This document shows positions 32,743 to 58,412 of a DNA stretch of 64,000 nucleotides, one piece after another (position 1 is the first letter of the stretch; every line of letters begins with the position of its first letter). The notes under the pieces were generated by a model. The model did not search any database. It was not told where the DNA came from and worked only from the letters and a program-made list of their open reading frames with translations. The stretch is from Paraburkholderia caballeronis (GTDB lineage Bacteria; Pseudomonadota; Gammaproteobacteria; Burkholderiales; Burkholderiaceae): positions 310,001-374,000 of the forward strand of contig NZ_FNSR01000003.1 in the NCBI RefSeq assembly GCF_900104845.1, given 5' to 3'. The position numbers were made by a program, and so were the translations under genes.

Positions 32743-33094
32743 GGGCATTCTCCAGCGCGGTGGGACTGTCGGGAGGCAGGTCGCGCGCGCCTTCCTGCGA
32801 GCGGATGCGCATGCCGTCGCGCACCTGCACCATGCAGCTTTGGCGGCCCGGCACGCCGTCGATCTCGACGAGGCATTCGAAGCACGCGCCCATCATGCAG
32901 TACGGCGCGCGCGGCGCGCCGGACACCGGCGTCGAGCGAAACCGCGCGACACCCGCGGCGAGCAGCGCGGCGGCGACCGAGCGGCCGCCCGGCACCGACA
33001 GCGGATGGTCGTTGAACCAGATGTCGACGAACGCGTCGGCGCTGGGCAGCGTCCTGAACAGCGAAGGAGGCGAAGAGGGCGATTGAACAGTCAT
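32732..33094 (-). CDS. Small (2Fe-2S)-binding subunit (HcnA-like)
   Basis: A 120-residue ferredoxin-like gamma subunit. The plant-type [2Fe-2S] cysteines appear as YCMMGACFECLVEIDG (about residues 65-80) and QSCM (about 86), lacking a long N-terminal extension. Such proteins combine with the HcnB-like and DadA-like flavoproteins next to it into a three-subunit amine dehydrogenase. Its stop overlaps the next gene by 11 bases and the DadA-like gene upstream ends 7 bases before its start, consistent with one transcript. Confidence 0.9.
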   Translation of the reverse strand: MTVQSPSSPPSLFRTLPSADAFVDIWFNDHPLSVPGGRSVAAALLAAGVARFRSTPVSGAPRAPYCMMGACFECLVEIDGVPGRQSCMVQVRDGMRIRSQEGARDLPPDSPTALENAHDR

Positions 33095-33101
33095 GGCGGA
33101 A

Positions 33102-35044: not shown

Positions 35045-35058
35045 GGTCGGCTCCGCCG

Positions 35059-35931: not shown

Positions 35932-36988
35932 GGGCGCCCTCCTGGGTGAGCACGCGCAGGTCGTCGTCGGTCCACGTGAGGCCCACTTCGCTGCCTTCGT
36001 CCGGCGGCGGCGCGCCGTAGTTAGGCTGCGCGACGTGCAGCCGGCCGAGCACGGTGTCGACGACCAGCAGCCACTGGTTGCCGACGAACACGCGCGTCGC
36101 GACCCGGCCGTGCACGCGCGCGTCGCCGTTCGCGAGCCGGACCTTCTCCGGGCGGATGTAGACGTTCACCGGACCCGCCACGTGCCGGCCTTCGTGCGGC
36201 ACGTACAGCGTCGTGTCGGCGACCGCCACTTCCGCGCAGCGCGGATTGCGGCGCAGCACCTCGCCGGCGAGCGCGTTGGTGCGGCCGAGGAACGTCGACG
36301 CGAACGGCGTCGCGGGGCGTTCGTAGGCGTCGAATGGCGTGCTCAACTGCGCGATCGCGCCGCGATGCATCACCGCGATGCGGTCGCTCATCGTCATCGC
36401 CTCGACCTGGTCGTGCGTGACGAGGATCGTCGTGATGCCGAGGCGCTTCTGGATCGCGCGCAGTTCGATGTGCATCTCTTCGCGCAGCTTCGCGTCGAGG
36501 TTCGACATCGGTTCGTCGAGCAGCAGCAGTTCGGGGCGCATCGCCAGTGCGCGGGCGATCGCGACGCGCTGCCGCTGGCCGCCGGACAGTTCCTTCGGAT
36601 ACCGTCCGTCGAGGCCGCGCAGACGCACGAGTTCGAGCGCCTCCGCGATGCGTTCCGCGCGCTGTTCGCGCTTCATCTTGCGCATCTCCAGCCCGAACCC
36701 GACGTTGCCGGCGACGGTCATGTGCGGAAACAGCGCATAACTCTGGAACACCACGCCGATGCCGCGTTTCTCGGGCCGCTCGCGCGTGATGTCGCGGCCG
36801 TCGAGTTCGATGCGGCCCGACGTCGGCGTGACGAACCCGGCGATCATCTGCAACGTGGTGGTTTTGCCGCAGCCGGACGGACCGAGCAGCGACAGGAACT
36901 CGCCGCGTTCGACCGCGAGGTCGATCTGTTCGATCGCCGTGAAGTCGCCATAGCGTTTCGAAATGCCGTGCAGCGTCAGGAAGCTCAT
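35918..36988 (-). CDS. ABC transporter ATP-binding protein, PotA type
   Basis: A 356-residue ATPase. Walker A LLGPSGCGKTTT (about residues 35-46), Q-loop VVFQSYALFPHM, signature LSGGQRQRVAIARAL and Walker B LLLLDEPMSNLDA are all intact, with the switch His in ILVTHDQVEAM. The C-terminal 110 residues (from about 240) form the TOBE regulatory domain typical of PotA/FbpC-like ATPases. It is encoded between the binding protein (55 bases upstream) and permease 1 (14-base overlap). Confidence 0.95.
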   Translation of the reverse strand: MSFLTLHGISKRYGDFTAIEQIDLAVERGEFLSLLGPSGCGKTTTLQMIAGFVTPTSGRIELDGRDITRERPEKRGIGVVFQSYALFPHMTVAGNVGFGLEMRKMKREQRAERIAEALELVRLRGLDGRYPKELSGGQRQRVAIARALAMRPELLLLDEPMSNLDAKLREEMHIELRAIQKRLGITTILVTHDQVEAMTMSDRIAVMHRGAIAQLSTPFDAYERPATPFASTFLGRTNALAGEVLRRNPRCAEVAVADTTLYVPHEGRHVAGPVNVYIRPEKVRLANGDARVHGRVATRVFVGNQWLLVVDTVLGRLHVAQPNYGAPPPDEGSEVGLTWTDDDLRVLTQEGAHGHA

Positions 36989-37043
36989 CAGCGTCCATCC
37001 TCACAAAAGGCGCGCGGTGCGCGCAACGGGTGCCGGATGCGGG

Positions 37044-38102
37044 TCAGCGTTCGACCGAACGGTTCCAGCGTTCCGTCCATTCGGTGCGATGCTGGTTGAT
37101 CGTCGTCCAGTCCATCGCGGTCAGCTTCGCGATCTGGTCCGGGCCGTACGGCACGCGCGCCGCGACGTCGGGCGCGAGCTTGACCGTCCGGTTGACCGGG
37201 CCGAGGCCGATCGCCTGCGCCTGCATTACCTGCACGTCCGGGCTCAGCAGATACTGGACGAACTGTTGCGACAGTTGCGGTTGCGCGTTCTCGGCCAGCG
37301 AGCAGGCGGCCACCTGGAGCGCGACGCCGCCTTCCTTCGGGTAGATGAACTTCAGCGGGAAGCCGGTGTTCTGCAACGCGACCGCGCGGCCGCTGCCGTA
37401 CGGCGCGAGGATCACGTCGCCCGCCTGCATCAGCCCGTCCATTTCGCCGGGCGTCGGCGCCCACGACAGCACGTTCGGACCGACCTGCTTCGTCATCGCG
37501 GTGAAGCCGGGGTCGATGTTCTTCTCGCCGCCGCCGTTCAGGCGCGCGAGCATCACGAGCGTATGCAGGCCGTAAGTGTTGGTGATCGGCGGCACGCCGA
37601 GCTTGCCTTTCAGGCGCGCGTCGGACAGCGCCTTCCACGAATCGGGCGCGGGCAGGCCGAGCTTCTTGAACGCGTCCTCGTTATAGCCGATGCCGGTCGC
37701 GACCATGCCGACGCCGACCGCCGTCGGGCCGAGGCGCGCGAGCGGGTACAGGTCCTTCATGACCGGCGCGTCGTCGACCTTCGCGCACAGCCCGAGCTGC
37801 ATCGCCTGGTACATCGGACCGTCGTCCATCACCGCGACGTTGATCTGCTGATGACCCTTCTGCGCCTGAAGCTTCGCGAGCGTGTCGCTCGAATTGCCCG
37901 CGACGTAGACCACTTTCACGTCGTGCGCCTTCTCGAACGGCGGGATGATTTTCTGGCGGTACAGCTGCTCGTTGGAGCCGCCGACGTTGGCGACGTACAG
38001 CGTGGTTTCGGCGTGGGCGAACGTGCTGGCGGCGGCGAGCGCGAGCACGCCGAGCGCAGCGGAGGGTTTGACGCGTGAACGGCGACACAACGCTTGCATC
38101 AT
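37044..38102 (-). CDS. Periplasmic substrate-binding protein, PotD-like
   Basis: A 352-residue solute-binding protein for the polyamine/opine-type ABC transporter. Signal peptide MMQALCRRSRVKPSAALGVLALAAASTFAHA with cleavage after AHA (about residue 31); mature start ETTLYVANVGGSNEQLYRQ. Conserved regions include SWKALSDARLKGKLGVPP near residue 175 and ILAPYGSGRAVALQN near 245, typical of the SBP_bac_8/PotD group. ATG at 38102 has TTGGAGA nine bases upstream; the long in-frame extension is non-coding. First gene of the minus-strand locus, divergent from LysR. Confidence 0.92.
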   Translation of the reverse strand: MMQALCRRSRVKPSAALGVLALAAASTFAHAETTLYVANVGGSNEQLYRQKIIPPFEKAHDVKVVYVAGNSSDTLAKLQAQKGHQQINVAVMDDGPMYQAMQLGLCAKVDDAPVMKDLYPLARLGPTAVGVGMVATGIGYNEDAFKKLGLPAPDSWKALSDARLKGKLGVPPITNTYGLHTLVMLARLNGGGEKNIDPGFTAMTKQVGPNVLSWAPTPGEMDGLMQAGDVILAPYGSGRAVALQNTGFPLKFIYPKEGGVALQVAACSLAENAQPQLSQQFVQYLLSPDVQVMQAQAIGLGPVNRTVKLAPDVAARVPYGPDQIAKLTAMDWTTINQHRTEWTERWNRSVER

Positions 38103-38180
38103 GACGGCGATCTCCAATCGATTGGGGGTGTCGGCAAGGGGGGAGGCTTGCCGATGCATCGCAGTCTCGCGCTCGCCGTT

Positions 38181-38228
38181 CATATCGTCCAATACGAATA
38201 AAATACCGATCCATGCATGGATGATATG
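38181..38228. promoter_or_regulatory. Nested inverted repeats in the divergent SBP/LysR promoter
   Basis: A perfect 14-bp palindrome (ATCCATGCATGGAT, 38209-38222) lies inside a wider inverted repeat, CATATCGTCC at 38181-38190 against GGATGATATG at 38219-38228 (one mismatch). The position, 35 bases before the LysR ATG and about 107 before the SBP gene, is where a LysR regulator would bind to control both. Confidence 0.55.
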
Positions 38229-38256
38229 GGTTAGGGTTAGACCCAGGAGGACCCGA

Positions 38257-39198
38257 ATGAACCTCAAGCATGTCGAAGCGTTTCGCGCGGTGATGGTGGC
38301 GGGGTCGATGACGGCCGCCGCCCGCGCGCTGTTCACGTCGCAGCCGAACGTCAGCCGCCTGATCGCCCAGCTCGAACGCGAGACCGGGCTCAAGCTGTTC
38401 CAGCGCCTCGGCGTGCGGCTGGTGCCGACGAGCGACGGCACCGCGTTCTTCCGCGAGGTCGAGCGCGCGTACGTCGGTCTTCAGGGACTGGCGAACGCCG
38501 CCGCGCAGATCCGCAATCTCGGCAGCGGGCGGCTGCGCATCGCGGCGATGCCGTCGGCGGGGCTCACGCTCGTGCCGCACGCGATCAACCGCTTTCAGCG
38601 TCTTTATCCGGGCGTGACCGTGTCGCTGCACGTCAACACGTCGGGCACCGTGAACCACTGGACGGCGTCGCAGTTCTGCGACCTCGGCGTGGCCGTGTAC
38701 ATCAGCGAGGCATCGGACTGCGAAGTGGAACTGCTGTCGAAGGTGGCGGCGGTCTGCGTGCTGCCGGCCGCGCACCGGCTGGCGAAGAAGGCCGTCATCA
38801 AGCCGGCGGATCTTGCGGGCGAGTCGTTCATCTCGTTATGCCACGGCGACGGCACGCGCGTGCAGATGGACGAGGTGTTCCAGCGCGCGGGCGTCGAGCG
38901 GGTGCTGGCGATCGAGGCGCAATACACGGCGATCTGTTGCGAGATGGTCCGGTGCGGGATGGGCGTGACGCTCGCGCATCCGATCGTCGCGCGCGATTTC
39001 GCCGGGCCGGACATCGCGATCCGGCCGTTCTCGCCGGCGGTGCTGTTTCCGACCTATCTGCTGTTTCCGCCGCATCGGCCGCGCGAGCGGCTGGCGTCCG
39101 CGTTCGTCGAGGTGCTGCGCGAACAGCACGACGAAACGATTGCCGAGATGAAAGCGGCAGGGCGGCGGACGCGGAAGCCGACGGCGGATGTGGCTTGA
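38257..39198 (+). CDS. LysR-family regulator of the amine uptake/oxidation locus
   Basis: A 313-residue LysR protein with winged helix at 1-60 (MNLKHVEAFRAVMVAGSMTAAARALFTSQPNVSRL shown only up to the first motif here: helix TSQPNVSRLIAQLE) and effector domain 90-295. AGGAGG is 6-7 bases upstream of the ATG at 38257; a longer in-frame reading includes divergent promoter DNA. It resembles regulators found beside opine and octopine/nopaline catabolism genes (OccR/NocR-like subgroup), which fits its divergent position, but specificity is inferred. A palindrome in the shared promoter is its probable site. Confidence 0.9.
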   Translation: MNLKHVEAFRAVMVAGSMTAAARALFTSQPNVSRLIAQLERETGLKLFQRLGVRLVPTSDGTAFFREVERAYVGLQGLANAAAQIRNLGSGRLRIAAMPSAGLTLVPHAINRFQRLYPGVTVSLHVNTSGTVNHWTASQFCDLGVAVYISEASDCEVELLSKVAAVCVLPAAHRLAKKAVIKPADLAGESFISLCHGDGTRVQMDEVFQRAGVERVLAIEAQYTAICCEMVRCGMGVTLAHPIVARDFAGPDIAIRPFSPAVLFPTYLLFPPHRPRERLASAFVEVLREQHDETIAEMKAAGRRTRKPTADVA

Positions 39199-39303
39199 GC
39201 GCCGTGGTGACGCGTTGTGACGCGCTCGTCTTGCGCGGGCTCAGGACAACGACGCGTCGCTGCGGCCGCGTTACGCGCCGCTTACTGGCGGATTACGCGT
39301 CTG

Positions 39304-40236
39304 CTATTCGTTGAGCAGCCATTGCGACTCGCCCTTCCATTCGCGCGCTTTCAGCAGCCCGTGAAGCGTTTTCACGACGATGTCCTTCAGCGCCTGCACG
39401 TGCCGCGCGGTCCGGTGCTCGCTGCGGGTCACGATCGACACGGTCGAGCGGATCTGCGGCCGCCGGATCGGATGCGCGGACAGCCGCTGGTTCTTCAGGT
39501 CGTCGTGGATGGCCGAATACGCGAGGATCGTATAACCGGCCCCCTGGCGCACGAGTTCCTTCGTGATCGGCACGCTGTCGACTTCCAGCACCACGTTCGG
39601 CGACACGCCGGCCTGCGCGGCGGCCACGTCGACGAGCCGGCGGTTGCTGTGCGGCAGCGCCGGCATGATGAGCGGCAGCCACGCGAGGTCCTTGATCGTG
39701 AACGGCGACTGCTCGCCGTGCGGCCCGGCGATCACCATCGATTCGCTGAACACCGGCTGCACGTGCACGCCTTCGAGCGGCATCTGGTTGTGGACCAGCA
39801 CCAGATCGACGCGGCGGTCGAGCAGCCATTCCTGCAATGAACTGCTGACGCCCTCGCGCATGGAAATCTCCGCGCCCGGAAATGCCTGCCGGTAGCGCGC
39901 GAGCACGTCCGGGGCGATCAGCAGCCCGAGCGTCGGCGGCACGCCGATCGCGAGCCGCGTCACCGCCTCGTGCGTGTTGGCCCGGATCTGCGCTTCGGTC
40001 TGCTCGACGTAGTGCGTGATGACTTCGGCCCGTTCGAGCAGCGTCGCGCCGGCCGCCGTCAACCGCACGCCGCGTCCGTGCCGGATCAGCAGCGGCGTGC
40101 CGAGGTCCTCTTCCAGCTTCCTGATCTGCCGGCTGAGCGCGGGCTGCGCGATGAACAGTTCGGCGGCGGCCCGGCTGAAACTGCCGACCCGGGCCACGTG
40201 AATGAACGAGCGAAGCTCGCGGAGTTCGACTGACAT
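39304..40236 (-). CDS. LysR-family regulator (NAC/CatM-like) of the alcohol/aldehyde cluster
   Basis: A 310-residue LysR protein: MSVELRELRSFIHVARVGSFSRAA, recognition helix AQPALSRQIRKLE (about residues 30-42), effector domain 90-300. The N-terminus and the LAIGVPPTLG start of the effector domain resemble the NAC/Cbl-CatM branch. It is divergent from the aldehyde dehydrogenase gene at 40471, with a perfect inverted repeat 14 bases upstream of its own start, so self-repression and control of the catabolic cluster are likely. It is convergent with the preceding LysR gene. Confidence 0.9.
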   Translation of the reverse strand: MSVELRELRSFIHVARVGSFSRAAAELFIAQPALSRQIRKLEEDLGTPLLIRHGRGVRLTAAGATLLERAEVITHYVEQTEAQIRANTHEAVTRLAIGVPPTLGLLIAPDVLARYRQAFPGAEISMREGVSSSLQEWLLDRRVDLVLVHNQMPLEGVHVQPVFSESMVIAGPHGEQSPFTIKDLAWLPLIMPALPHSNRRLVDVAAAQAGVSPNVVLEVDSVPITKELVRQGAGYTILAYSAIHDDLKNQRLSAHPIRRPQIRSTVSIVTRSEHRTARHVQALKDIVVKTLHGLLKAREWKGESQWLLNE

Positions 40237-40249
40237 GGGCGATTATCGA

Positions 40250-40270
40250 GGTATGCTGAACCGGCATACC
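40250..40270. promoter_or_regulatory. Candidate LysR operator upstream of the catabolic cluster
   Basis: A perfect 7-bp inverted repeat, GGTATGC at 40250-40256 and GCATACC at 40264-40270, spaced by 7 bases. It lies 14 bases upstream of the LysR start and 200 bases upstream of the aldehyde dehydrogenase start, the standard place for a LysR recognition site in a divergent promoter. The other 200 bases of the gap show no gene. Confidence 0.6.
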
Positions 40271-40470
40271 TTCCCATAGCTAAATGGTTTTTGTCAAACC
40301 AGACGAAACTCAATAAGCTTGACGCACTCGACGATGCCGCATGGCATTGGCTGGCGCGTACTGCGGACGGCTCATTGCCGTACCCGGACGCGTCCTCAGG
40401 CGGGCATGCCGGCGCTACGCGGCGGCTTCCGCATCTACCCGGTCAGGGACATTTGGAGGGACGATTGAAG

Positions 40471-41934
40471 ATGTACCATCAAACAGCGCTGTATATCGAC
40501 GGGGAGTGGTGCCAGGGTAGCGAAGGCGTCGCGAGCGACGTGTTCAATCCGGCGACCGGCGACGTGATCGGCCAGGTGCCTCACGCGTCCAAAGCGGATC
40601 TTCAGCGCGCGGTGGATGCGTCCGTGCGCGCATTCGGGCAATGGCGCCACGTGCCCGCGAACGATCGCGTGAAGGTGCTGCGCAAGGCGGGCGACCTGCT
40701 GCGCGAGCGCGCGGACAGCATCGCGAAGCTGATGACGCTGGAGCAGGGCAAGCCGCTCGCGGAGGCCCGCGCCGAACTGCTGTTCGCGCCCGAGCACATC
40801 GACTGGTGCGCGGACGAAAGCCGCCGGCTGTACGGCCGCATCGTGCCGGGGCGCGCGCCGAACGTGCGTCAGCTGGTGGTGCGCGAGCCGGTCGGCCCGG
40901 TCGCCGCGTTCTCGCCGTGGAATTTTCCGGTCAGCCAGATGATCCGCAAGATCGCCGGCGCGCTCGCGACGGGCTGCACGATCACCATCAAGGCGCCGGA
41001 AGAAACGCCCGCGTCGTGCATGGAGGCCGTGCGCTGCTTCGAGGACGCGGGCGTGCCGCGCGGTGCGCTGAATCTCGTGTTCGGCGTGCCGGCCGACATC
41101 TCCAGCTTCCTGATCCCCGCGCCCGGCATCCGCAAGGTGTCGTTCACCGGCTCGGTGCCGGTCGGCAAGAAGCTCGCCGCGCTGGCGGCCGAGCACATGA
41201 AACGCTGCACGATGGAACTGGGCGGCCACGCGCCGCTGATCGCGTTCGGCGACGTCGATCCGGTGTGGGTGGCCGACGTGTCGGCGGCCGTGAAGTTCCG
41301 CAATGCCGGCCAGGTCTGCATTTCGCCGACCCGCTTCTACATTCACGAAAGCATTCACGACGCGTTCGTCGAGCGGTTCGCCGCCATTGCGTCGTCGCTG
41401 CGCGTCGGCGACGGCCTGTCGCCGGATACGCAGATGGGACCGCTCGCGAACGCGCGCCGCGTGCAGGCGATGGAGCGTCTCGTCGCCGACGCGGTGTCGC
41501 GCGGCGCGCGTGTCGTCGCGGGCGGCAAGCGTCCGCCGGGCAACGGTTATTTCTACGAGCCGACGGTGCTGGTCGACGTGCCCGAGGACGCGGCGATCAT
41601 GAACGAAGAGCCGTTCGGCCCGGTGGTGCCGGTGGCCCGCTTCAAGACCTTCGACGAAGTGGTCGCGCGTTCGAACCGGCTGCCGTTCGGCCTCGCGTCG
41701 TATGCGTTCACGCGCTCGCTCGAAACGACCGCGGCGCTGTCCGAGCGCATCGAGGCGGGCATGCTGTCGGTGAACGGCGCGCTGCTCACGTCGCCGGAAA
41801 CGCCGTTCGGCGGCATCAAGGACAGCGGCTTCGGCAGCGAAGGCGGCATCGAAGGGATGGAGTCGTATCTCACCACGAAGCTCATCAGCGAGATTCGCAT
41901 CGGCGGGCGCCAGTCCGAACTGGGAGGGGCGTAA
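40471..41934 (+). CDS. NAD(P)-dependent aldehyde dehydrogenase
   Basis: A 487-residue aldehyde dehydrogenase, similar to succinate-semialdehyde and long-chain aldehyde dehydrogenases. Catalytic Cys283 in GQVCISPTRFY, general base Glu249 in MELGGHAPL, cofactor loop FTGSVPVGKKLA near 225-236, and NFPVSQMIRKIAGAL near 150. The cofactor motif reads IKAPEETP in place of the common KPAE/KPSE. Start taken as ATG 40471; a TTG at 40465 also follows GGAGGG. First gene of the plus-strand cluster; probably oxidises the aldehyde made by the GMC enzyme that follows. Confidence 0.93.
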   Translation: MYHQTALYIDGEWCQGSEGVASDVFNPATGDVIGQVPHASKADLQRAVDASVRAFGQWRHVPANDRVKVLRKAGDLLRERADSIAKLMTLEQGKPLAEARAELLFAPEHIDWCADESRRLYGRIVPGRAPNVRQLVVREPVGPVAAFSPWNFPVSQMIRKIAGALATGCTITIKAPEETPASCMEAVRCFEDAGVPRGALNLVFGVPADISSFLIPAPGIRKVSFTGSVPVGKKLAALAAEHMKRCTMELGGHAPLIAFGDVDPVWVADVSAAVKFRNAGQVCISPTRFYIHESIHDAFVERFAAIASSLRVGDGLSPDTQMGPLANARRVQAMERLVADAVSRGARVVAGGKRPPGNGYFYEPTVLVDVPEDAAIMNEEPFGPVVPVARFKTFDEVVARSNRLPFGLASYAFTRSLETTAALSERIEAGMLSVNGALLTSPETPFGGIKDSGFGSEGGIEGMESYLTTKLISEIRIGGRQSELGGA

Positions 41935-41945
41935 GCCAGCCGTCG

Positions 41946-43541
41946 ATGGAGGAGACATACGATTACATCGTCGTCGGCGCGGGCTCGGCGGGGTGCGTGC
42001 TCGCCGATCGCCTGAGCGAGGACGGCGCGGCGAGCGTGCTCGTGCTCGAAGCGGGCGGGCGCGACTCCAATCCGTGGATCCACGTGCCGATCGGCTACGC
42101 AAAGACGCTGTTCGACGCGCGCGTGAACTGGTGCTTCGACATGGAGCCGTCGCCCGAACTCGGCCAGCGGCGGCTCTACATGCCGTGCGGCCGCGTGCTC
42201 GGCGGATCGAGTTCGATCAACGGCCTGCTTTACGTGCGCGGCCAGCAGCAGGACTACGACGACTGGGCGCGGCTCGGCAACCGCGGCTGGAGCTGGAGCG
42301 ACGTGCTGCCGTTCTATCGCCGCTCGGAAGACCAGCAGCACGGCGGCGACGCGTTTCACGGCAGCGGCGGACCGCTCCCGGTGTCCGACCAGGTCGAGCG
42401 GCATGCGTTGTGCGAGGCGTTCGTCGAAAGCGGCCGCGTCGCCGGTTATCGGGCGACGGACGACTTCAATCGCGGCGACCAGGAGGGGCTTGGCTACTAC
42501 CAGGTCACCGCCCGCGACGGCCGCCGGATGAGCACGGCTGTCGCGTTCCTGCGGCGGGCCGAGCGCCGTCCGAACGTGTCGCTCGTGACCGGCGCGATGG
42601 TCGAGACGATCGACCTGGATGGACTGGTCGCGCGGGGCGTCACGTGGCGCGTCGGCGGCGTGCGGCGCAAGGCCGTCGCGCGGCGCTGCGTGGTGCTGGC
42701 GGCCGGCGCGATCAACACACCGTCGCTGTTGCAGCGTTCCGGCATCGGCCGGCCCGACTGGCTTCAGGCCGCGGGCATCGACGTGAAGCACGCGTTGCCC
42801 GGCGTCGGCGCGAACCTGCAGGACCATCTGCAGGCGAAACTGGTCTATCGCTGCGCCCATCCGGTGACGCTGAACGATCGCGCGCGGCATCTGACCGGCA
42901 AGGTCGCGATGGGGCTCGCGTACCTGCTGCGGCGTCGCGGTCCGCTGACGATCGCGGCCGGCCAGGCGGGCGGATTCGTGCGGACTGCGTTGTCGTCCGG
43001 GCGGCCCGACGTGCAGTTCCACGTGATGACGTTCAGCAGCGCGGATCTGCGCAAGGGGCTCGACGAGTTTTCCGGCATGACCATCTCGGCGTGCCAGCTT
43101 CGTCCCGAGAGCCGCGGCACCGTGCGCGTGACCGCGCCCGACGCGGCGGTCGCGCCCGCGATCGCGCCGGAGTTCCTCGCGTCGGAGACCGACCGGCGCA
43201 CGCTGGTCGAAGGGCTGCGGATCGGCCGGCGCATCGCCGGGGCGGGTCCGCTCAGCGCGGAACTGGAGCGGGAGGAGCGGCCCGGCGTCAACGTGGACAG
43301 CGACGAGGACCTGCTCGCCTACGTGCGGGCGACCGCCGGTTCGGTGTTCCACCCGGCAGGAACGTGCCGGATGGGCAGCGACGCGGACGCGGTGGTGGAC
43401 GAACGGCTGCGTGTCCGCGGAGTCGGCCGGCTGATGATCGCGGATGCGTCGATCATGCCGACGATCGTGTCGGGCAATACGAACGCCGCGTGCATCATGA
43501 TCGGCGAACGGGCGGCGGCTTTTCTGAAGGAGGCCGCATGA
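41946..43541 (+). CDS. GMC-family FAD-dependent alcohol oxidoreductase
   Basis: A 531-residue glucose-methanol-choline family flavoenzyme, here most like proteobacterial alcohol or polyol dehydrogenases. FAD site DYIVVGAGSAGCVLADRL (about residues 5-22) with Glu of LVLEAG near 37; GMC signature GRVLGGSSSINGLLYVRG near 80-97 and GAINTPSLLQRSGIG near 255-270; the catalytic His is in VFHPAGTCRMG and the partner Asn in SGNTNAACIMIGE near the C-terminus. Begins 11 bases after the aldehyde dehydrogenase stop. Oxidation of an unknown primary alcohol to aldehyde is the expected reaction. Confidence 0.92.
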   Translation: MEETYDYIVVGAGSAGCVLADRLSEDGAASVLVLEAGGRDSNPWIHVPIGYAKTLFDARVNWCFDMEPSPELGQRRLYMPCGRVLGGSSSINGLLYVRGQQQDYDDWARLGNRGWSWSDVLPFYRRSEDQQHGGDAFHGSGGPLPVSDQVERHALCEAFVESGRVAGYRATDDFNRGDQEGLGYYQVTARDGRRMSTAVAFLRRAERRPNVSLVTGAMVETIDLDGLVARGVTWRVGGVRRKAVARRCVVLAAGAINTPSLLQRSGIGRPDWLQAAGIDVKHALPGVGANLQDHLQAKLVYRCAHPVTLNDRARHLTGKVAMGLAYLLRRRGPLTIAAGQAGGFVRTALSSGRPDVQFHVMTFSSADLRKGLDEFSGMTISACQLRPESRGTVRVTAPDAAVAPAIAPEFLASETDRRTLVEGLRIGRRIAGAGPLSAELEREERPGVNVDSDEDLLAYVRATAGSVFHPAGTCRMGSDADAVVDERLRVRGVGRLMIADASIMPTIVSGNTNAACIMIGERAAAFLKEAA

Positions 43542-43621
43542 ACGCGCAATCGATGAATGCGACGCCGCGCGTTCCCGCGCGCGGCGCGCCGCTGAACGGA
43601 GACGCCTATGCCATGGTGTAA
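43538..43621 (+). CDS. Possible 27-residue coupling peptide
   Basis: An open frame of 27 codons starts at an ATG overlapping the GMC stop (ATGA) and has GAAGGAGG ahead of it, so translation is likely. It ends 14 bases inside the next gene, at 43621. Its product (MNAQSMNATPRVPARG, then APLNGDAYAMV) resembles nothing I know. It may be a real small protein or only serve to bring ribosomes to the next start at 43608. Confidence 0.35.
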   Translation: MNAQSMNATPRVPARGAPLNGDAYAMV

Positions 43622-44411
43622 CGCTTCGGGCGTGAGCATCCGCTACGAGGTGGCGGGGTCGGGCGACCGTCCGCTGCTGCTGGCGCACGAACTCGGCGGC
43701 AGCCTGCGAAGCTGGGATGCCGTCGTCGCGGAACTGGGCGACGACTTCACGATCGTGCGCTGGGACCAACGCGGCAGCGGACTATCGGAAAAGACGGTGG
43801 CCCCGTACGACATGCGCGCGCACGTCGACGACCTGGAGGCCGTGCGCGCGGCGGCGGGCATCAGCGGCCCGTGTTTCGTCGGCGGCGTGGCGGCCGGCGC
43901 GGCGATCGCGGTGATCTATGCGGCGAGCCGGCCCGCCGACTGCGAAGGGCTGATCCTCTGCGCGCCGGCGCTCGGCGTCGATCCGGCGCGGCGCGGCTAT
44001 CTGCTCGAACGCGCGAACGACGCCGCGCGCGCCGGCATGCGCGCGGTGGTCGAGCGGTCGCTGGAGCGCTCGTATCCGCCGCTGGCCGTGCGGTCGCCGG
44101 CGGCCTATCACGAGTATCGCGCCCGCTTCCTGAGCAACGATCCGGTCAGTTACGGACTGGCGAACGCGGCGCTGGCGTCGTCGCCGGCGCTGGATCTGCT
44201 GGCGTCGGTCGACTGTCCGGCCGTCGTCGCGGCAGGCCGGCTCGACATGCTGCGGCCGCCGGAACAGGTGAAGAGTGTCGCGGCGGCGGTGGCCGGGGGC
44301 CGGCTGGAGGTGCTCGATTGCGGGCACATCATGCAGGTTCAGGCGCCGCTGGAGGTCGCGACGCTGATCCGGACCTTCGCGGGTCAGGTGCAACGCAAGC
44401 TGGAGGCGTGA
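43608..44411 (+). CDS. Alpha/beta-hydrolase-fold protein lacking the nucleophile Ser
   Basis: A 267-residue alpha/beta-hydrolase of the 3-oxoadipate enol-lactonase (PcaD)-like type. The oxyanion region AHELGGSLRSWD and IVRWDQRGSG are present, as are the acid (Asp213 in GRLDML) and His240 (DCGHIMQ). However, the nucleophile elbow, normally GxSxG, reads GGVAAG, with Ala95 (codon GCG at 43890-43892) where Ser belongs. It is therefore not an ordinary serine hydrolase. It could be a non-catalytic partner or use a mechanism not needing Ser. A second, intact hydrolase follows at 46494 in the same cluster. No frameshift or stop disturbs the gene, so it is kept by selection. Confidence 0.88.
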   Translation: MPWCNASGVSIRYEVAGSGDRPLLLAHELGGSLRSWDAVVAELGDDFTIVRWDQRGSGLSEKTVAPYDMRAHVDDLEAVRAAAGISGPCFVGGVAAGAAIAVIYAASRPADCEGLILCAPALGVDPARRGYLLERANDAARAGMRAVVERSLERSYPPLAVRSPAAYHEYRARFLSNDPVSYGLANAALASSPALDLLASVDCPAVVAAGRLDMLRPPEQVKSVAAAVAGGRLEVLDCGHIMQVQAPLEVATLIRTFAGQVQRKLEA

Positions 44412-44519
44412 GGTCATGACGACGCTGTCGACGGCGGCCCGCGCGGTGCGGCCGATTCGCGGATAGGGCATTCCAGTCCGAATCCGTGCAGGAACACAGA
44501 TAAAACTAAGGAGACTTAA

Positions 44520-45830
44520 GTGAAAAAAACCTCGATGTTTTCGTGGTACCGGACCGGTACCGCACAGGAGAGAAGGACTTTCTGGGCGTGTTTTGCCGGC
44601 TGGACGCTGGACACGTTCGACGCCCAGGTGTTCAGCTTCCTCGTGCCGGCGCTGATGGCGGTGTGGCACATCGACAAGGGGCAGGCGGGGATGCTGGGGA
44701 CGGCGGCGCTGCTGGCGTCGGCGATCGGCGGCTGGATTGCCGGCGTGTTGAGCGACCGGCTCGGCCGGGTGCGGGTGCTGATCTTCACGGTCGCGTGGTT
44801 CACGCTGTTCAGTATCGTCGCGGGTTTCACGCATCAGTTCGGGCAACTGCTGGTCGTGCGCATCTTCCAGGGGCTCGGTTTCGGCGGCGAGTGGGCGGTC
44901 GGCGCGACCCTGATGGCCGAAGTGATCCGGCCGGAGCATCGTGGGCGCGCGGTCGGCCTCGTGCAGAGCGGGTTCTCGATCGGCTGGGGACTGGCGTCGG
45001 TGGTCACGACGGCGATCCTCGCGTGGTTTCCGCAGGCGCTGAGCTGGCGGGTCGCGCTGTGGTTCACGGTGCTGCCGGCCGTTATCGCGCTGCTGGTGAG
45101 CCGCAAGCTGGAGGAACCCGAGATATTCCGGCGCCGCGTCAAGACGGCGTCGTCGGCGGAGAAAGCGACCTTCATGTCGATCTTCCGCAAGGACGTGCTG
45201 CGCCGCACGGTGCTCGCGAGCCTGCTGGTGGTCGGCTTCCAGTCGAGCAGCTACGCCATCATCAACTGGCTGCCGACGCTGCTGGTGCAGGTCCGGCATC
45301 TGGCGCCGCAGCAGATCGTCGTGACGATGCTCATCATGACCGGCGGCGCGTTCGTCGGTTTTCTCGGCCACGCATGGCTGTGCGACCGCATCGGGCGTCG
45401 CCCGACGCTGCTGCTATCCAGCGTCGCCGCATGGATCCTGACCGTCTGCTACACGCTCGTGCCGCTGAACCCGACGCTGCTCGCGCTGATGGGATTCCCG
45501 GTCGGCTTCTTCGTCAACGGCATGTTCGCGGCGGTCGGCCCCTATCTGACCGAACTCTTTCCGACCGAGATCCGCACGACCTGCATGGCGTTCTCGTACA
45601 ACATGGGCAAGTCGGTGGGCGCGCTGGCGGTGACGGCGGTCGGCGTGGTGTCGGCGTATTTCACGCTGAGCCAGTCGATCGGATTCTTCTGCCTCGTGGG
45701 TTATGCGCTCTCCGTTTTCGCGCTGATGCTGCTGCCCGAAACGCGCGGCGCGCGGCTGGATGCGGTGGAGGGCAATGGCGCGTCGGGCGCGGCGGCCGAC
45801 CCGGCCGCGCTCGCGGAGAGTTCGCGATGA
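44520..45830 (+). CDS. MFS transporter, MHS/AAHS (organic acid) type
   Basis: A 436-residue proton symporter with 12 membrane segments. WTLDTFDAQVFSFLVPAL at residue 28 and VLSDRLGRVRVLIF (about 75) carry the family's TM1 Asp and motif A; RIFQGLGFGGEWAVGATLMAE near 115 is characteristic of the sugar/aromatic acid/shikimate group. It starts with GTG at 44520, preceded by AAGGAGA at 6 bases, after a 108-base gap that could hold an internal promoter. It likely takes up the substrate of the cluster or its acid product. Confidence 0.92.
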   Translation: MKKTSMFSWYRTGTAQERRTFWACFAGWTLDTFDAQVFSFLVPALMAVWHIDKGQAGMLGTAALLASAIGGWIAGVLSDRLGRVRVLIFTVAWFTLFSIVAGFTHQFGQLLVVRIFQGLGFGGEWAVGATLMAEVIRPEHRGRAVGLVQSGFSIGWGLASVVTTAILAWFPQALSWRVALWFTVLPAVIALLVSRKLEEPEIFRRRVKTASSAEKATFMSIFRKDVLRRTVLASLLVVGFQSSSYAIINWLPTLLVQVRHLAPQQIVVTMLIMTGGAFVGFLGHAWLCDRIGRRPTLLLSSVAAWILTVCYTLVPLNPTLLALMGFPVGFFVNGMFAAVGPYLTELFPTEIRTTCMAFSYNMGKSVGALAVTAVGVVSAYFTLSQSIGFFCLVGYALSVFALMLLPETRGARLDAVEGNGASGAAADPAALAESSR

Positions 45831-46504
45831 GCGCTCACGGCCCCGATGCGCCGATGGCCGGTTTGGCCGACGCTTCACCCGGCCTGCTGATGGTGATGAT
45901 GGAGCCGCCGGCGGCGCTGGAGGACGAGTTCAACGACTGGTACGACACCGAGCATTTCCCGCAGCGCGCGGCGCTGCCCGGCTTCGTCTCGGCGAGCCGC
46001 TGGGTGTGCGTGGACGGCTGGCCGAAATGGCTCGCGCTGTACGAGCTGACGTCGCCGGCCGCGCTGCGCAGTCCGGCGTATCTGGCCGTGTCGGGACGCA
46101 ACGGGACGCCGTGGAGCAAACGCGTGTTGCCGAAGACCACGGGCCGCAGGCGCATCGTCGCGAGCGCGATCGGGCCTCACGATGCGCCTCGGGCGGGCTC
46201 CGACGCGCTGTCGTTCCTGACGCTCGTCGGCTGGTCGGCGGACGACGATGCCGCCGCCCGTCGCGTGGCATCGGTGCTGCGGGACTCGCTGGCGGAATCG
46301 GCGGCCGCCGAATCCTTTCGCGCCTTCGTTGCGCCGTCGCGCGGCGCGCTGCATGCGTGGGCGTTGATCGGCGCGGCATCGCCCGCGAAAGACGAGCGGG
46401 CGCGTGCCACTGCCACGCGCGTGCTGGAAGCGGAGCGGGTGCATTTGATGAACCGTTATGTCCCGTACGTGCGGGCCGGGAGCGAATACAGCGATGGCGC
46501 ATGA
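45827..46504 (+). CDS. EthD-like dimeric alpha/beta-barrel protein
   Basis: A 225-residue protein with two ferredoxin-like (dimeric alpha/beta barrel) halves: the first is clear from GLLMVMMEPPAALEDEF, then DWYDTEHFPQRAALPGF near residues 36-52, the EthD-type DWYxxEHxP pattern. The second half (110-220) is more divergent. EthD-like proteins occur in ether, polyether and aromatic degradation clusters with unproven roles. Its ATG overlaps the MFS stop (ATGA). I cannot assign a reaction. Confidence 0.8.
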   Translation: MSAHGPDAPMAGLADASPGLLMVMMEPPAALEDEFNDWYDTEHFPQRAALPGFVSASRWVCVDGWPKWLALYELTSPAALRSPAYLAVSGRNGTPWSKRVLPKTTGRRRIVASAIGPHDAPRAGSDALSFLTLVGWSADDDAAARRVASVLRDSLAESAAAESFRAFVAPSRGALHAWALIGAASPAKDERARATATRVLEAERVHLMNRYVPYVRAGSEYSDGA

Positions 46505-47357
46505 GATGCAAAGACAGCGGACGGACTGGCGGCGCGGTGCGCCGTTCGACGTGCGGTGCGGCGACGGCGCGACGATCCGCTGCCGGATCGACGGCGTGCC
46601 GGGCGCGCCCTGGGTGCTGTTCAGCAATTCGCACGCGACGAATCTGTCGATGTGGGACGAACAGGTGCGCGCGCTGGAGGACCGCTTTTCGATCCTGCGC
46701 TACGACCAGCGCGGGCACGGCGGCAGCGCGGTCACGCCGGACGTGACGTTCGACCGTCTCGCGGAAGACGTGGTGGATATCTGCGATGCCGTTTCGATCG
46801 ATCGGGCGACGCTCGTCGGCGTGTCGATGGGGGCGGTGACGGTGCTGCGGGTCGCGGCCCGCTTTCCGCAGCGCGTAGTCCGTGTCGTTGCGTGCGACGG
46901 TCAATGGAAGGCGCCGGCCGGCGCGCGCGAAGCGTGGGAGACCCGCATCGCCGCCGCGCGCACGGCCGGCATGACGCCGCTCGCGGCCGCGACGGTCGCG
47001 CGCTGGTTTCCCGCGCAGTCATTGCGCGATGCTGCGAGCCGGATCGCCGCCGTGGAGGCGATGATCCGGGCCACGTCCGTGGACGGCTACGCGTATTGCG
47101 CGATGGCGATGCAGGCTTACGACTTCAGCGGCGACTGTCCGCGCTTCGCGTTGCCGGTGCATTTCGTCGTCGGGGCCTGCGACGGCGCGCTGCCCGCGAC
47201 GATGCTCGACATGCACGCCGCGACGCCGGGTTCGACCTACGACGTCATTCCGGAGGCCGGCCACCTGCCGCCGGTCGACCGGCCGGAAACCATCAATGCG
47301 CTGCTCGCCCGCTATCTCGGATCGGGCGAAGCGGCAGACGGAGACACAGAACGATGA
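46494..47357 (+). CDS. Alpha/beta hydrolase, 3-oxoadipate enol-lactonase-like (intact)
   Basis: A 287-residue alpha/beta-hydrolase with a full catalytic set: nucleophile in LVGVSMGAVTVLR, acid in VVGACDGALP, His in EAGHLPPVDRP. SNSHATNLSMWDEQ and LRYDQRGHGGS are the family oxyanion and strand signatures. Start at 46494 overlaps the EthD-like gene by 11 bases; ATG 46506 is an alternative. The C-terminal partner gene encodes a carboxymuconolactone decarboxylase-like protein, the same pairing as PcaD and PcaC in the protocatechuate branch, but similarity is only at family level and no other pca gene is present. Confidence 0.9.
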   Translation: MAHEMQRQRTDWRRGAPFDVRCGDGATIRCRIDGVPGAPWVLFSNSHATNLSMWDEQVRALEDRFSILRYDQRGHGGSAVTPDVTFDRLAEDVVDICDAVSIDRATLVGVSMGAVTVLRVAARFPQRVVRVVACDGQWKAPAGAREAWETRIAAARTAGMTPLAAATVARWFPAQSLRDAASRIAAVEAMIRATSVDGYAYCAMAMQAYDFSGDCPRFALPVHFVVGACDGALPATMLDMHAATPGSTYDVIPEAGHLPPVDRPETINALLARYLGSGEAADGDTER

Positions 47358-47887
47358 GCAGAATCGATCCGGTGACGCCGGAACGGATGTCCGACGAGCA
47401 ACGCAGGCTCTACGACTCGATCAGCAGCGGCCCGCGAGGCGGCGTGCGCGGCCCGCTCGCGATCTGGCTGCATCGGCCGGGCCTGGCGGCTCCAGCCCAG
47501 GAACTCGGCGCGTATTGCCGGTACGGTTCGTCGCTGGACGCGCGGCTGTCCGAACTGGCGATCATCACGCTCGGCAGCCTGTGGGACGCCGGCTACGAAT
47601 GGTCCGCGCACAAGCCGCTCGCGCTCGCGGCCGGCGTCGCGCCGGAAGTCGTCGATGCGATCGGGCGCAAGGAAACGCCGCGCTTCGAGCGCGAGGACGA
47701 GCAACTGGTCTATGACTTCGTGACCGCGCTGTCGGTCGGGCGCGACGTAACCGAACCGCTGTTCCGCCGCGTGCTGGAAGGACTGGGCCGCGACGGCCTG
47801 ATCGACCTGACCGGCATCGTCGGTTATTACACGTTCATATCGATGACGATCAAGGTCTTCGACATTCAACCGGGGCCACGCCCTTAA
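47354..47887 (+). CDS. Carboxymuconolactone decarboxylase-family protein
   Basis: A 177-residue all-helical protein of the CMD/AhpD-like superfamily. The active region LSELAIITLGSLWDAGYEWSAHKPLA (near residues 65-90) has Glu, Tyr-Glu-Trp and His of the CMD subgroup but no CxxC pair, so it is not an AhpD-like peroxidase. ATGA overlap with the upstream hydrolase means the two are coupled. Probable role in lactone or ring-cleavage product processing; reaction unproven. Confidence 0.88.
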   Translation: MSRIDPVTPERMSDEQRRLYDSISSGPRGGVRGPLAIWLHRPGLAAPAQELGAYCRYGSSLDARLSELAIITLGSLWDAGYEWSAHKPLALAAGVAPEVVDAIGRKETPRFEREDEQLVYDFVTALSVGRDVTEPLFRRVLEGLGRDGLIDLTGIVGYYTFISMTIKVFDIQPGPRP

Positions 47888-47892
47888 CTTTC

Positions 47893-47913
47893 GCGTCTGT
47901 TCAGTACAGACGC
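47893..47913 (+). terminator. Hairpin between the catabolic genes and the porin
   Basis: A perfect 8-bp stem GCGTCTGT/ACAGACGC with a 5-base loop begins 5 bases after the CMD-like stop. It has no T tract. It may attenuate read-through to the porin or protect the upstream mRNA 3' end. A second small stem (GCCCGT/ACGGGC at 47984-47998) lies before the porin ribosome site. Confidence 0.5.
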
Positions 47914-48025
47914 TTCAGCAGGTATCCCCTTTCGTTGTTTGCGCTCGTCGCCCGATGCGACGGCGGGATCCTGCTCGTCCGTAGCCCGTATGACGGGCAG
48001 TAAAAAAATAAAGGAGATGGAAAAG

Positions 48026-49225
48026 ATGAACAAAAAGACGATCTGCACGCTGCTGGTTTTTCCCGTGTCGCTTTGCGCGCATGCGCAGAGTTCGGTGACG
48101 CTCTATGGTCTGCTGGACAACGGCCTTGCATACGTGTCCAACGCGCATGGCGCGCGCCAGTATTCGGTCAGCACGAGCAACCTGCAGGGAGACCGTTGGG
48201 GTTTGCGCGGTTACGAGGACCTGGGCGACGGCTTCGGCGCGGTCTTTCAACTGGAAAACGGCTTCAACGTCGATACCGGCGCATTGGGACAAGGGGGCGC
48301 CGAGTTCGGGCGCAGGGCGTTCGTCGGCGTGACGAGCCCGTACGGCACGGTGACGATCGGCCGGCTGAATGACCCGGTTGGCGATTTCGTCGGCGGCTTC
48401 GAGTCGGCGAATACGGAGTCTCACGTGAAGGCCGGCGAGTGGGGCAGCATTCCGGGCGCGCACCCTGGCGACCTCGACAATCTCGACAACACGTTCCACA
48501 TCAACAACTCGGTCAAGTACACCAGCAATTCCCTCAACGGCCTCGTCGTCGGCGGCATGTACACGTTCGGCGGCATCGCGGGCAATTTCAGGCAGAACCA
48601 GTTGTACGGCATCGGCGCGCGATACGATCGCGGGCCGCTGAGCGCGGGCGTCGCGTTCGAGCGCGCGCAGAATCCGAACTATGCGGTGTGGGGCGTGAAT
48701 CCGAACGCCAGTTCGCCGGCGTCGGCCAACGCGTCGAACATGACGAGCCCGGTCTACAGCGGTTATGCGTCGGCCGGAACGTGGCAGGTGCTGGCGGCGG
48801 GCGGCGCGTATCAGATCGGCGACGTGACGCTGGGCGCGGTCTACAGCAACGTCAAGTTTCTCGATCTCGGCGCGACGGCCGGCGCGGGGCTCAACCCGCG
48901 AGGGCTGAGCGGCCATGCGACGTTCAACGTCGCGGAACTGAGCGCGGCGTGGCTCGTGAGGCCGGAATGGCAGGTCGGCGTCGCGTGGACCTATACGCAT
49001 GGCGCGTCGAGCGATTCGACTTCGGCCGCGTCGTACAACCAGGTGAACGTCGGCAGCAACTATTTCCTGTCGAAGACGACGGACCTGTATCTCGTGGGGC
49101 TGTTCCAGCGCGCGTCGGGCATCGATTCGACCGGGGCGGACGCGGTGGCGGCGATCAATGCGCTGACGCCGTCCAGTTCGCGCGTGCAGACGGCGGCCAT
49201 CGTCGGGATTCGCCACAAGTTCTGA
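48026..49225 (+). CDS. Outer-membrane porin, Gram-negative beta-barrel type (OmpC/Bordetella class)
   Basis: A 399-residue trimeric general porin common in Burkholderiales. Signal peptide MNKKTICTLLVFPVSLCAHA, then mature QSSVTLYGLLDNGLAYVSN, the porin N-terminal strand. Alternating aromatic/hydrophobic strands continue to the terminal Phe (GIRHKF) needed for barrel assembly. FGRRAFVGVTSPYGTVTIGRLNDP is the conserved third-loop region. AAGGAGATGG lies 8 bases upstream of the ATG. As last gene of the cluster it may admit its substrate; the 138-base gap with hairpins before it suggests its own promoter too. Confidence 0.93.
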   Translation: MNKKTICTLLVFPVSLCAHAQSSVTLYGLLDNGLAYVSNAHGARQYSVSTSNLQGDRWGLRGYEDLGDGFGAVFQLENGFNVDTGALGQGGAEFGRRAFVGVTSPYGTVTIGRLNDPVGDFVGGFESANTESHVKAGEWGSIPGAHPGDLDNLDNTFHINNSVKYTSNSLNGLVVGGMYTFGGIAGNFRQNQLYGIGARYDRGPLSAGVAFERAQNPNYAVWGVNPNASSPASANASNMTSPVYSGYASAGTWQVLAAGGAYQIGDVTLGAVYSNVKFLDLGATAGAGLNPRGLSGHATFNVAELSAAWLVRPEWQVGVAWTYTHGASSDSTSAASYNQVNVGSNYFLSKTTDLYLVGLFQRASGIDSTGADAVAAINALTPSSSRVQTAAIVGIRHKF

Positions 49226-49294
49226 GTGCAGGACGCGGCGCGGAGCGGAAACGCGAGGCCCGCTTCCCGGCGGCGGGCTCGCGGCGCGCAACGC

Positions 49295-49486
49295 CTATGC
49301 GGGCTGCGCGACTCCCGTTGCCGGCAGCTTGCGCGGCGCGCGATCCTCACCCGTCGCGACGAACGTCAGCGTCGCTTCCGTGACCTTCACGATCACCTCG
49401 TTGAGCCCCATCCGCTGCGCGAATACCTCGACGTTCACGGTGACGGACGTGGTGCCTTCGCGGACGATCCGGGCGTAGAAGTGTTC
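49295..49486 (-). pseudogene. C-terminal remnant of an acyl-CoA thioesterase (YciA-type hotdog)
   Basis: The reading EHFYARIVREGTTSVTVN, followed by VEVFAQRMGLNEVIVKVTEA and TLTFVATGEDRAPRKLP, matches the last two strands of YciA/ACOT hotdog thioesterases. The N-terminal part, about 75 residues with the catalytic Asp and HotDog helix, is missing: upstream DNA (49487-49600) is unrelated and repetitive. I treat it as a truncated pseudogene, not a functional 78-residue gene. Confidence 0.65.
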
Positions 49487-49580
49487 GCAACTAACGGTCA
49501 ACCCCGCACGACACACCCGACAACGCTCCATCGCGCAAAAACAACCATGCCCGGCAGAACGCGGGGCATACCACGTCTAC

Positions 49581-49620
49581 GATGAGAAGCGGGGAGAAGC
49601 GATGAGAAGCGGGGCGAAGC
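49581..49620 (+). repeat. Two tandem copies of a 20-mer
   Basis: GATGAGAAGCGGGGAGAAGC at 49581-49600 is repeated at 49601-49620 with one change (A to C). It sits between the thioesterase remnant and acuI and looks like a slippage duplication near a deletion scar. Confidence 0.85.
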
Positions 49621-49644: not shown

Positions 49645-50628
49645 TCAACGATTCACATCGACGACAAGCCGCCCACGCACCTGCCCTTGCAGCAGTTCAC
49701 TCGCCGCGTCGATCGCCTCGCCGAGTCCGATTTCGCGCGTCATCGCATCGAGCCGCTGATGATCGAGTTCCTGCGCGAGCCGCTGCCACGCGACGTTGCG
49801 CTCCGCGATCGGCCGCGTCACGCTGTTGACGCCGAGCAGGCTCACGCCGCGCAGGATGAACGGCGCAACGGTTGCCGGCAAATCCATCCCTTGCGCGAGG
49901 CCGCACGCGGCAACTGCGCCGTCCGCGCGAATGCCTGCACACACATTCGCGAGCGTATGGCTGCCGACCGAGTCGATCGCGGCGGCCCAGCGTTCCTTCT
50001 GCAATGGCTTGCCGGGCTCGGACAGCGTATGCCGATCTACGATTTCAGCAGCGCCGAGGCCGGTCAGGTAGGCGGACTCCTGCGGCCGCCCGGTCGATGC
50101 GACCACGCGATAACCGCGCTTCGCGAGCAGCGCGATCGCGAAGCTGCCGACGCCGCCGTTCGCGCCGGTCACCAGCACGTCGCCGCTCGCGGGCTTCAGC
50201 CCGTGGCGTTCGAGCGCGAGGATGCACAGCATCGCGGTATAACCGGCGGTCCCGACTGCCATCGTCTGTTTCGGCGTGAGGCCGTCCGGCAGCGGGATCA
50301 GCCAGTCGCCGCTGACGCGCGCCTTCTGCGCGAGGCCGCCCCAATGCGCTTCGCCGACGCCCCAGCCGTTCAGCACCACGCGGTCGCCGGCCGCGTAACC
50401 CGGATGCGAACTCGCGGCGACGGTGCCCGCGAAGTCGATGCCCGGCACCATCGGAAAACGGCGAACCACCGGACCCTTGCCGGTGATCGCGAGGCCGTCC
50501 TTGTAGTTGAGCGTGCTGTATTCGACGTTCACGAGCACGTCGCCTTCCGGCAATTGCGACTCGTCGAGCGACGCGAGCCGCGCGCGAGACACTTCGTTAT
50601 CCTTCTCGATCAGAATGGCATTGAACAT
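49645..50628 (-). CDS. acuI: Acrylyl-CoA reductase-like quinone oxidoreductase (YhdH/AcuI family)
   Basis: A 327-residue NADPH-dependent medium-chain reductase without zinc ligands. AcuI reduces acryloyl-CoA to propionyl-CoA, detoxifying acrylate. [15 protein letters not shown] (near residue 40), [27 protein letters not shown] and the NADPH site [28 protein letters not shown] (about 148-175) are all AcuI/YhdH signatures. GGAG lies 7 bases before the ATG. A TetR gene of the AcuR kind stands 54 bases upstream on the same strand, forming a regulator-reductase pair as in other acrylate-detoxifying bacteria. Confidence 0.92.
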
Positions 50629-58216: not shown

Positions 58217-58412
58217 CGACACTGGACTCCATCGCCGCGGCGTGCGCCGGACGCTGTGGCGCCGTTCGCGTGCACGGCGACTCGTTTTCAGAACGATAGC
58301 GAGGGTAGCGCAAAGCGCCTCTGTTCCGGGCGGAATCTTCCGCGGCGGACTGTCGCCTTTGTCGCGATGTGAGCGGTGTCTGGATCGTTCGAATAGTCTG
58401 GATGGCGGACCA

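Follow-up and report, generated by a model that had tools for sequence, protein, structure and literature searches.

A window of 64,000 nucleotides from Paraburkholderia caballeronis (NZ_FNSR01000003.1; positions 310001-374000 of contig 3, in a genome of 7.1 Mb and three contigs) was analysed, in which eight plus-strand genes at 40471-49225 lie divergent from a gene for a LysR-type regulator. They code for an aldehyde dehydrogenase (ALDH), a GMC-family oxidoreductase (GMC), two proteins of the alpha/beta-hydrolase fold (ABH1 and ABH2), an MFS carrier, an EthD-like protein of the DUF4286 type, a carboxymuconolactone decarboxylase-like protein (CMD) and a porin, as an initial annotation of this DNA had listed them. 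The set consists of two layers, a recurring, patchy core (LysR-ABH1-DUF4286-ABH2-CMD) and local genes. With a probability of about 0.55, we read it as an inducible catabolic operon whose core handles a lactone, enol-lactone or beta-keto-acid intermediate and to which the GMC and the ALDH were recruited as a front end. Within the core, ABH1 belongs to a branch of PcaD-like proteins in which the catalytic serine is lost.

A hydrolase branch without the catalytic serine

ABH1 (43608-44411, plus strand) is PcaD-like in its sequence and in its predicted fold (Foldseek lists). It scored 131.7 bits with TIGR02427, the model of PcaD (3-oxoadipate enol-lactonase), below the cut-off of 255.85. The nucleophile serine is replaced by an alanine (Ala95), and the same replacement was found in all 39 relatives of at least 34% identity and in three out of three further ABH1-type proteins that were read afterwards. 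Of the other triad residues, both Asp213 and His240 persist in each of the 60 aligned rows, from which the 32% identical Paracoccus protein of locus L080 was left out. The proteins with the alanine elbow form one clade (99/93), present across several families of Pseudomonadota, and a His-Glu motif (H27-E28) is fixed in this clade and marks the branch. Among the matches listed from open-access papers, none describes the clade.

The branch is sparsely distributed in the genomes that were searched. Matches to ABH1 at an E value of 1e-53 or better were present in 8 of 144 genomes of the genus and matches at 1e-50 in at least 4 of 398 genomes of the phylum, where up to six candidates were scored for each; the own genome is included in both counts. 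A relative of 71% identity comes from P. caribensis (P0122). Among the matches listed from one source database, 12 of 19 homologues are named 3-oxoadipate enol-lactonase.

Because the nucleophile residue is lost, the usual acyl-enzyme route would be closed to ABH1. The candidates left for it are general acid-base catalysis, cofactor-free oxygenation and a non-catalytic role. The new residue to consider first is Glu28, which is fixed in the clade and lies beside the oxyanion region. A further-reaching proposal, to which we give somewhat less than even odds, is that ABH1 is the founder of an undescribed family. This family would be derived from PcaD by a single loss of the nucleophile, with the His-Glu motif fixed in the oxyanion loop, and would catalyse a nucleophile-free reaction (isomerisation, decarboxylation, a lyase reaction or cofactor-free oxygenation) in a lactone pathway, with DUF4286, the cofactor-free barrel protein, as its partner.

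ABH1-type genes were also seen in other surroundings. One genome of the same genus (G375) has two of them (L097 and L098), which lie on separate contigs and both have a porin in the neighbourhood. On plasmid pUSP2 of Aminobacter sp. MSH1 (L077), an ABH1-type protein with the alanine elbow is encoded between genes of a tripartite tricarboxylate transporter; a 3-keto-5-aminohexanoate cleavage protein is also encoded in the vicinity, as is an EthD protein. In genome G599 of the same phylum (L119/L122), the gene lies near that of a radical-SAM protein, which we take to resemble CofG of F420 biosynthesis.

DUF4286, ABH2 and CMD

At E 0.001, neither Pfam nor NCBIfam gave a model match for the EthD-like protein (45827-46504, plus strand), and the label DUF4286 was taken from the source names of its homologues, of which one, named as a Paraburkholderia caballeronis protein, is 98% identical. 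The protein is predicted to fold as a tandem ferredoxin-like barrel of the alpha+beta (ABM) type. More distant DUF4286 genes are found together with an MFS gene on plasmids of Pseudomonas aeruginosa and Pantoea vagans (L034, L035), where they neighbour RraA-type and 5-oxoprolinase genes, or amidase and DUF2848 genes. It seems, then, that a number of catabolic clusters make use of the DUF4286 barrel family.

ABH2 (46494-47357, plus strand) scored 205.7 bits with TIGR02427, likewise below the PcaD cut-off. Its elbow G-V-S-M-G is intact and the serine is present in 8 of 8 members of the ABH2 group. Two PcaD genes above the cut-off (317.2 and 258.3 bits) are present elsewhere in the own genome, and ABH1 and ABH2 are therefore extra paralogues. 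CMD (47354-47887, plus strand; 41-60% identical to its relatives at the core loci) matched PF02627 with 21.1 bits, just under the curated cut-off of 23, and the PcaC model was not among its NCBIfam matches.

The core recurs in related genomes

Relatives of DUF4286 were sought in one genome per species, which gave 28 loci; loci of or near the own genome may be omitted from these. Counted by hand, 15 of the 28 (L002-L011, L013-L016 and L026) hold at least two of LysR (at least 45%), ABH1, ABH2 and CMD (at least 40%). The usual order is the divergent LysR gene, ABH1, DUF4286, ABH2 and/or a DctA-type SDF carrier, CMD, an SDR and Amidohydro_2. The SDF/DctA carrier was found in 10, the SDR in 10 and the amidohydrolase in 11 of the 15 core loci, whose hosts include Paraburkholderia, Caballeronia, Massilia, Azorhizobium, Rhodoplanes and Pseudomonas; ABH2 is missing from several loci. 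The window itself has the orthologous LysR with an ATGC-N7-GCAT site, an ABH1 of the alanine clade, DUF4286 and CMD in one neighbourhood.

In the family, 4 of 299 genomes, the own included, had a DUF4286 match of more than 100 bits. All three others have ABH1, CMD and LysR genes adjoining, in one case on the L002 contig. Genome G775, which belongs to another family, shows LysR, a transporter subunit, ABH1, DUF4286, CMD, an SDR and an amidohydrolase in this order.

The amidohydrolase of L002 matched LigI, the 2-pyrone-4,6-dicarboxylate hydrolase, with 216 bits, and the 4-sulfomuconolactone hydrolase below the cut-off. A relative of this amidohydrolase is encoded in 10 more of the 15 core loci, at 37-83% identity or, for L016, with another PF04909 member as the closest. 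The window cluster differs in that it has no such amidohydrolase. The idea that the own genome has its LigI-like lactonase at another place was rejected, since the search there gave no more than one relative of 30% identity (E 1.2e-5).

Of the stretches that were examined, the window alone shows all eight genes in this order. They do not recur as one unit; what recurs in the relatives is LysR-ABH1-DUF4286-ABH2-CMD. The suggestion that the set does not correspond to a known pathway was not contradicted: among the matches listed from open-access papers, none assigns a substrate to this core or to an orthologous cluster.

A LysR operator shared with the core

The LysR gene (39304-40236, minus strand; PF00126 and PF03466) has orthologues of 47-54% identity beside the core in other genomes. 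Between it and the ALDH gene, the clear operator that had been claimed was indeed observed as a perfect inverted repeat, GGTATGC-N7-GCATACC (40250-40270), of the LysR T-N11-A type. This is the sole exact copy in the 7.1 Mb genome. With up to two mismatches, 15 copies were found compared to 13 in the control, so the repeat does not serve as a genome-wide regulon mark and only the perfect copy is informative.

The inner motif ATGC-N7-GCAT was then counted within 250 bp upstream of LysR genes with at least 270 aligned residues. The window's own LysR stands outside this count, and the re-fetched duplicates L067, L099, L101-L103 and L081 were left out. The motif was present upstream of 14 of 18 orthologues (at least 45% identity), compared to 210 of 9000 random windows from the same loci, and upstream of 0 of 2 less similar LysR genes that passed the same length filter. 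The Pseudomonas loci L013-L016 have one site sequence in common; counted once, the result is 11 of 15. Of the four orthologues without it, that of L069 has a site between LysR and ABH1, which are on one strand there, and in L005 a site lies about 130 bp before DctA. Read on the LysR strand, the site of the relatives starts with xCTATGC and ends with GCAT followed by A or G. In L031 a second site was found about 230 bp before a porin gene.

Clusters with this common operator may share an inducer. Since it is also common to clusters without GMC and ALDH, LysR probably senses an intermediate of the core and not the alcohol.

The front end and the transport genes

ALDH (40471-41934, plus strand; PF00171, 521 bits) had its best NCBIfam match with the SSADH model at 486 bits, below the cut-off of 646. 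Its nearest relatives are SSADH and alpha-ketoglutaric semialdehyde dehydrogenases, with the PDB matches 9zh8 and 5x5t. Relatives of 30 and 33% identity occur in 2 of the 15 core loci (L002, L015), kilobases away. GMC (41946-43541, plus strand; PF00732/PF05199), a choline dehydrogenase-like FAD alcohol oxidoreductase, is nearest among solved sequences to 8b7s, a chloramphenicol-inactivating oxidoreductase (383 bits), followed by 9lq0 (366 bits). A GMC relative was found in 1 of the 15 core loci, near ABH1 in the Caballeronia locus L003 (39% identity), and another of 39% adjoins ABH1 on the Massilia putida plasmid L030. Closer GMC proteins (51 and 57%; L109 and L110) are encoded in stretches without the core. 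GMC was therefore rejected as a member of the conserved unit.

The MFS carrier (44520-45830, plus strand) had been named an MHS-type carrier. This had to be revised, as the aromatic-acid/H+ symport model TIGR00895 (AAHS) gave 215 bits and the metabolite/H+ symport model TIGR00883 gave 132 bits, both under their cut-offs. The carrier shares 54-55% identity with those of the mml (4-methylmuconolactone) clusters in Cupriavidus necator H16 and C. basilensis, and 59% with an MFS that is encoded in an mml-like cluster of a Pseudomonas luteola plasmid. The P. luteola cluster (L078, NZ_CP044084.1) encodes an ABH1-type protein with the alanine elbow and two carriers of the window type, together with CatC, a CoA-transferase, a thiolase, an MBL hydrolase, an acyl-CoA dehydrogenase and a CoA ester lyase.

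The porin (48026-49225, plus strand; PF13609, 148 bits) is 38-47% identical to porins encoded close to the core or to ABH1 at L010, L031, L068, L097, L098 and L100. By these comparisons, ALDH, GMC and MFS are local additions to the core, and porins recur in part.

Gene layout and neighbouring genes

The initial annotation had counted four overlapping junctions; three were found, MFS/DUF4286 with 4 bp (45827/45830), DUF4286/ABH2 with 11 bp (46494/46504) and ABH2/CMD with 4 bp (47354/47357). The gaps at the other junctions are 11 bp (ALDH/GMC), 66 bp (GMC/ABH1), 108 bp (ABH1/MFS) and 138 bp (CMD/porin). From strand, spacing and overlaps we infer that the eight genes are probably co-transcribed. 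A scan of 39200-49600 gave one promoter-like site (40230-40257, plus strand), which overlaps the operator, where shuffled sequences gave a mean of 0.6, and two terminator-like sites with a shuffled mean of 5.5. The scan is therefore evidence in neither direction. The G+C content is 0.65-0.71 in the cluster and its flanks alike, with no marked shift, and no RNA feature at gathering score was found in the window.

The next gene after the porin codes for the acrylyl-CoA reductase AcuI (49645-50628, minus strand), with a score above the model cut-off. On the other side lie a gene for an FAD oxidoreductase with BFD-like [2Fe-2S] and sarcosine-oxidase A3 domains (31336-32748, minus strand), ABC transporter genes (35059-36988, minus strand) and a second LysR gene inside the open reading frame 37945-39198 (plus strand). 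Together, 31336-39198 looks like an oxidase and uptake set of the amine/opine type. A Peptidase U32 family protein (202 bits) is encoded at 57191-58222 on the minus strand.

Discussion

We propose that the compound would enter through the porin and the mml-type MFS carrier. The GMC flavoenzyme and ALDH would oxidise a primary alcohol to a carboxylic acid that feeds the core, where ABH1, DUF4286, ABH2 and CMD would process a lactone, enol-lactone or beta-keto-acid; this intermediate is probably also the inducer. ABH2, with its Ser-His-Asp triad, may hydrolyse an enol-lactone like PcaD, CMD may decarboxylate, and DUF4286, as a cofactor-free barrel of the ABM/EthD type, may isomerise or oxygenate. 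For ABH1 an acid-base step by His240-Asp213 is conceivable, possibly helped by Glu28, and the product would lead to 3-oxoadipate or central metabolism. The step order, the lactone chemistry and the reaction of each enzyme are assigned here from the protein families. A lactone stage had also been put forward by the initial annotation. The likeness of ABH2 to PcaD, the LigI-like lactonase in a related cluster and the mml-like carrier make a lactone or enol-lactone stage plausible. Lactone hydrolysis by the usual mechanism is no step for ABH1, whose nucleophile is gone.

Several observations weigh against the proposed two-layer operon. ABH1 is missing from the core loci L013-L016 and L026, and of the three ABH1-type genes read later, two (L121 and L122) lie outside the core. 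The exact operator site is missing upstream of 4 of the 18 LysR orthologues, and the later found L120 has no operator site. The window cluster has no CoA-transferase, thiolase or MmlI homologue. Finally, the MFS carrier is 55.7% identical to that of a Caballeronia NK8 cluster without mml genes. An equally close carrier in a non-mml cluster means that the carrier does not fix the substrate, and the methylmuconolactone link is therefore a lead.

How far does this lead go? The operon could serve a substituted muconolactone, for example a methylmuconolactone, with DUF4286 acting as the methylisomerase MmlI does, the MFS importing the lactone, ABH2 opening the enol-lactone, the Pca enzymes of the genome finishing the degradation and GMC and ALDH working on a side-chain alcohol. 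MmlI has a barrel related to the predicted fold of DUF4286, the carrier is close to those of mml clusters and an ABH1-type gene lies within the mml-like P. luteola cluster. The logic would be that of the mml pathway, as described in PMC6449761. The cluster on pHG1 of C. necator H16 (NC_005241.1) resembles that of the window in its LysR control and, as far as proposed here, in a lactone pathway with a small isomerase, besides the 54% identical MFS. It differs in that the window cluster has no CatC, MBL-type hydrolase or CoA-transferase, its LysR is only 26% identical, and DUF4286 has no sequence match to the H16 MmlI. MmlI was also not named among the Foldseek matches listed for DUF4286, which excludes nothing. 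With the carrier group serving a non-mml cluster as well, we consider this specific substrate unlikely. A catalytically dead ABH1, serving as a scaffold or sensor while ABH2 and CMD do the chemistry, would fit the loss of the nucleophile in the whole clade and the absence of ABH1 from L013-L016 and L026, where it is thus dispensable. We doubt this, because in a dead protein the rest of the triad should decay as well, and Asp213 and His240 stand in every row of the alignment with H27-E28 fixed over several families of Pseudomonadota.

It is rather improbable that the genes are chance neighbours with separate functions, an ALDH-GMC alcohol oxidation, the core module and a porin. The relatives do not keep ALDH, GMC and MFS together with their core and gaps of 66-138 bp separate GMC/ABH1, ABH1/MFS and CMD/porin, but MFS, DUF4286, ABH2 and CMD overlap, all eight genes are on one strand behind one LysR operator, GMC-family genes lie by ABH1 in L030 and L003, and porins are near several cores. 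Very unlikely, in our view, is an ABH1 acting as a cofactor-free dioxygenase like HOD or AqdC on an enolic ring, such as a 3-hydroxy-4-pyranone formed by GMC and ALDH from a hydroxymethyl precursor, in which case the operon would contain a ring-cleavage step. The Asp126 of HOD sits after strand 6. According to PMC10548524, AqdC-type dioxygenases lack the nucleophile and keep the His-Asp pair, AqdC has a natural alanine elbow, and in HOD the His-Asp pair works and the serine is dispensable; ABH1 matches this in its sequence, with Ala95, D213 and H240, yet its acid is at the PcaD-type position, unlike Asp126, and the His-Glu motif is specific to its clade. In sequence and fold ABH1 is PcaD-like, which is not a direct comparison to HOD. 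No such bacterial pathway was found among the literature matches listed (in one list the best 12 of 992), and kojic or comenic acid as the substrate of an oxygenase-type ABH1 was rejected, with no support among these matches.

Compared to the beta-ketoadipate pathway, the two-layer operon has PcaD-like members, ABH1 without and ABH2 with the serine, and a PcaC-like CMD, all below their model cut-offs, and it lacks ring-cleavage and CoA-transfer genes. This is in line with the initial view of a regulated catabolic set with a porin and a carrier but no ring-cleavage enzyme. RutD of the aminoacrylate hydrolase family has a His at the nucleophile place, where ABH1 has Ala95. The polyethylene glycol (PEG; peg) operon consists of the GMC-type PegA, an ALDH, a TonB receptor and an acyl-CoA synthetase. 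GMC and ALDH are shared with the window cluster, though no peg protein was compared, and neither a TonB receptor nor an acyl-CoA synthetase was among the Pfam matches of the other genes of the cluster. Readings as a PEG, vanillin or terpene pathway were rejected, as nothing in the gene set or its relatives points to them (no such proteins were compared), and the polyether-like substrate that had been suggested was dropped for the same want of a pointer.

As such, the cluster is one of many uncharacterised catabolic clusters, and its weight comes from the serine-less branch. The automatic name enol-lactonase is doubtful for the proteins with the alanine elbow. In many loci their branch is accompanied by the shared operator and by another type of protein that probably also works without a cofactor. 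In conclusion, the catalytic serine of a textbook hydrolase family is lost in one conserved, monophyletic branch that has kept the rest of the triad, which hints at an undescribed chemistry.

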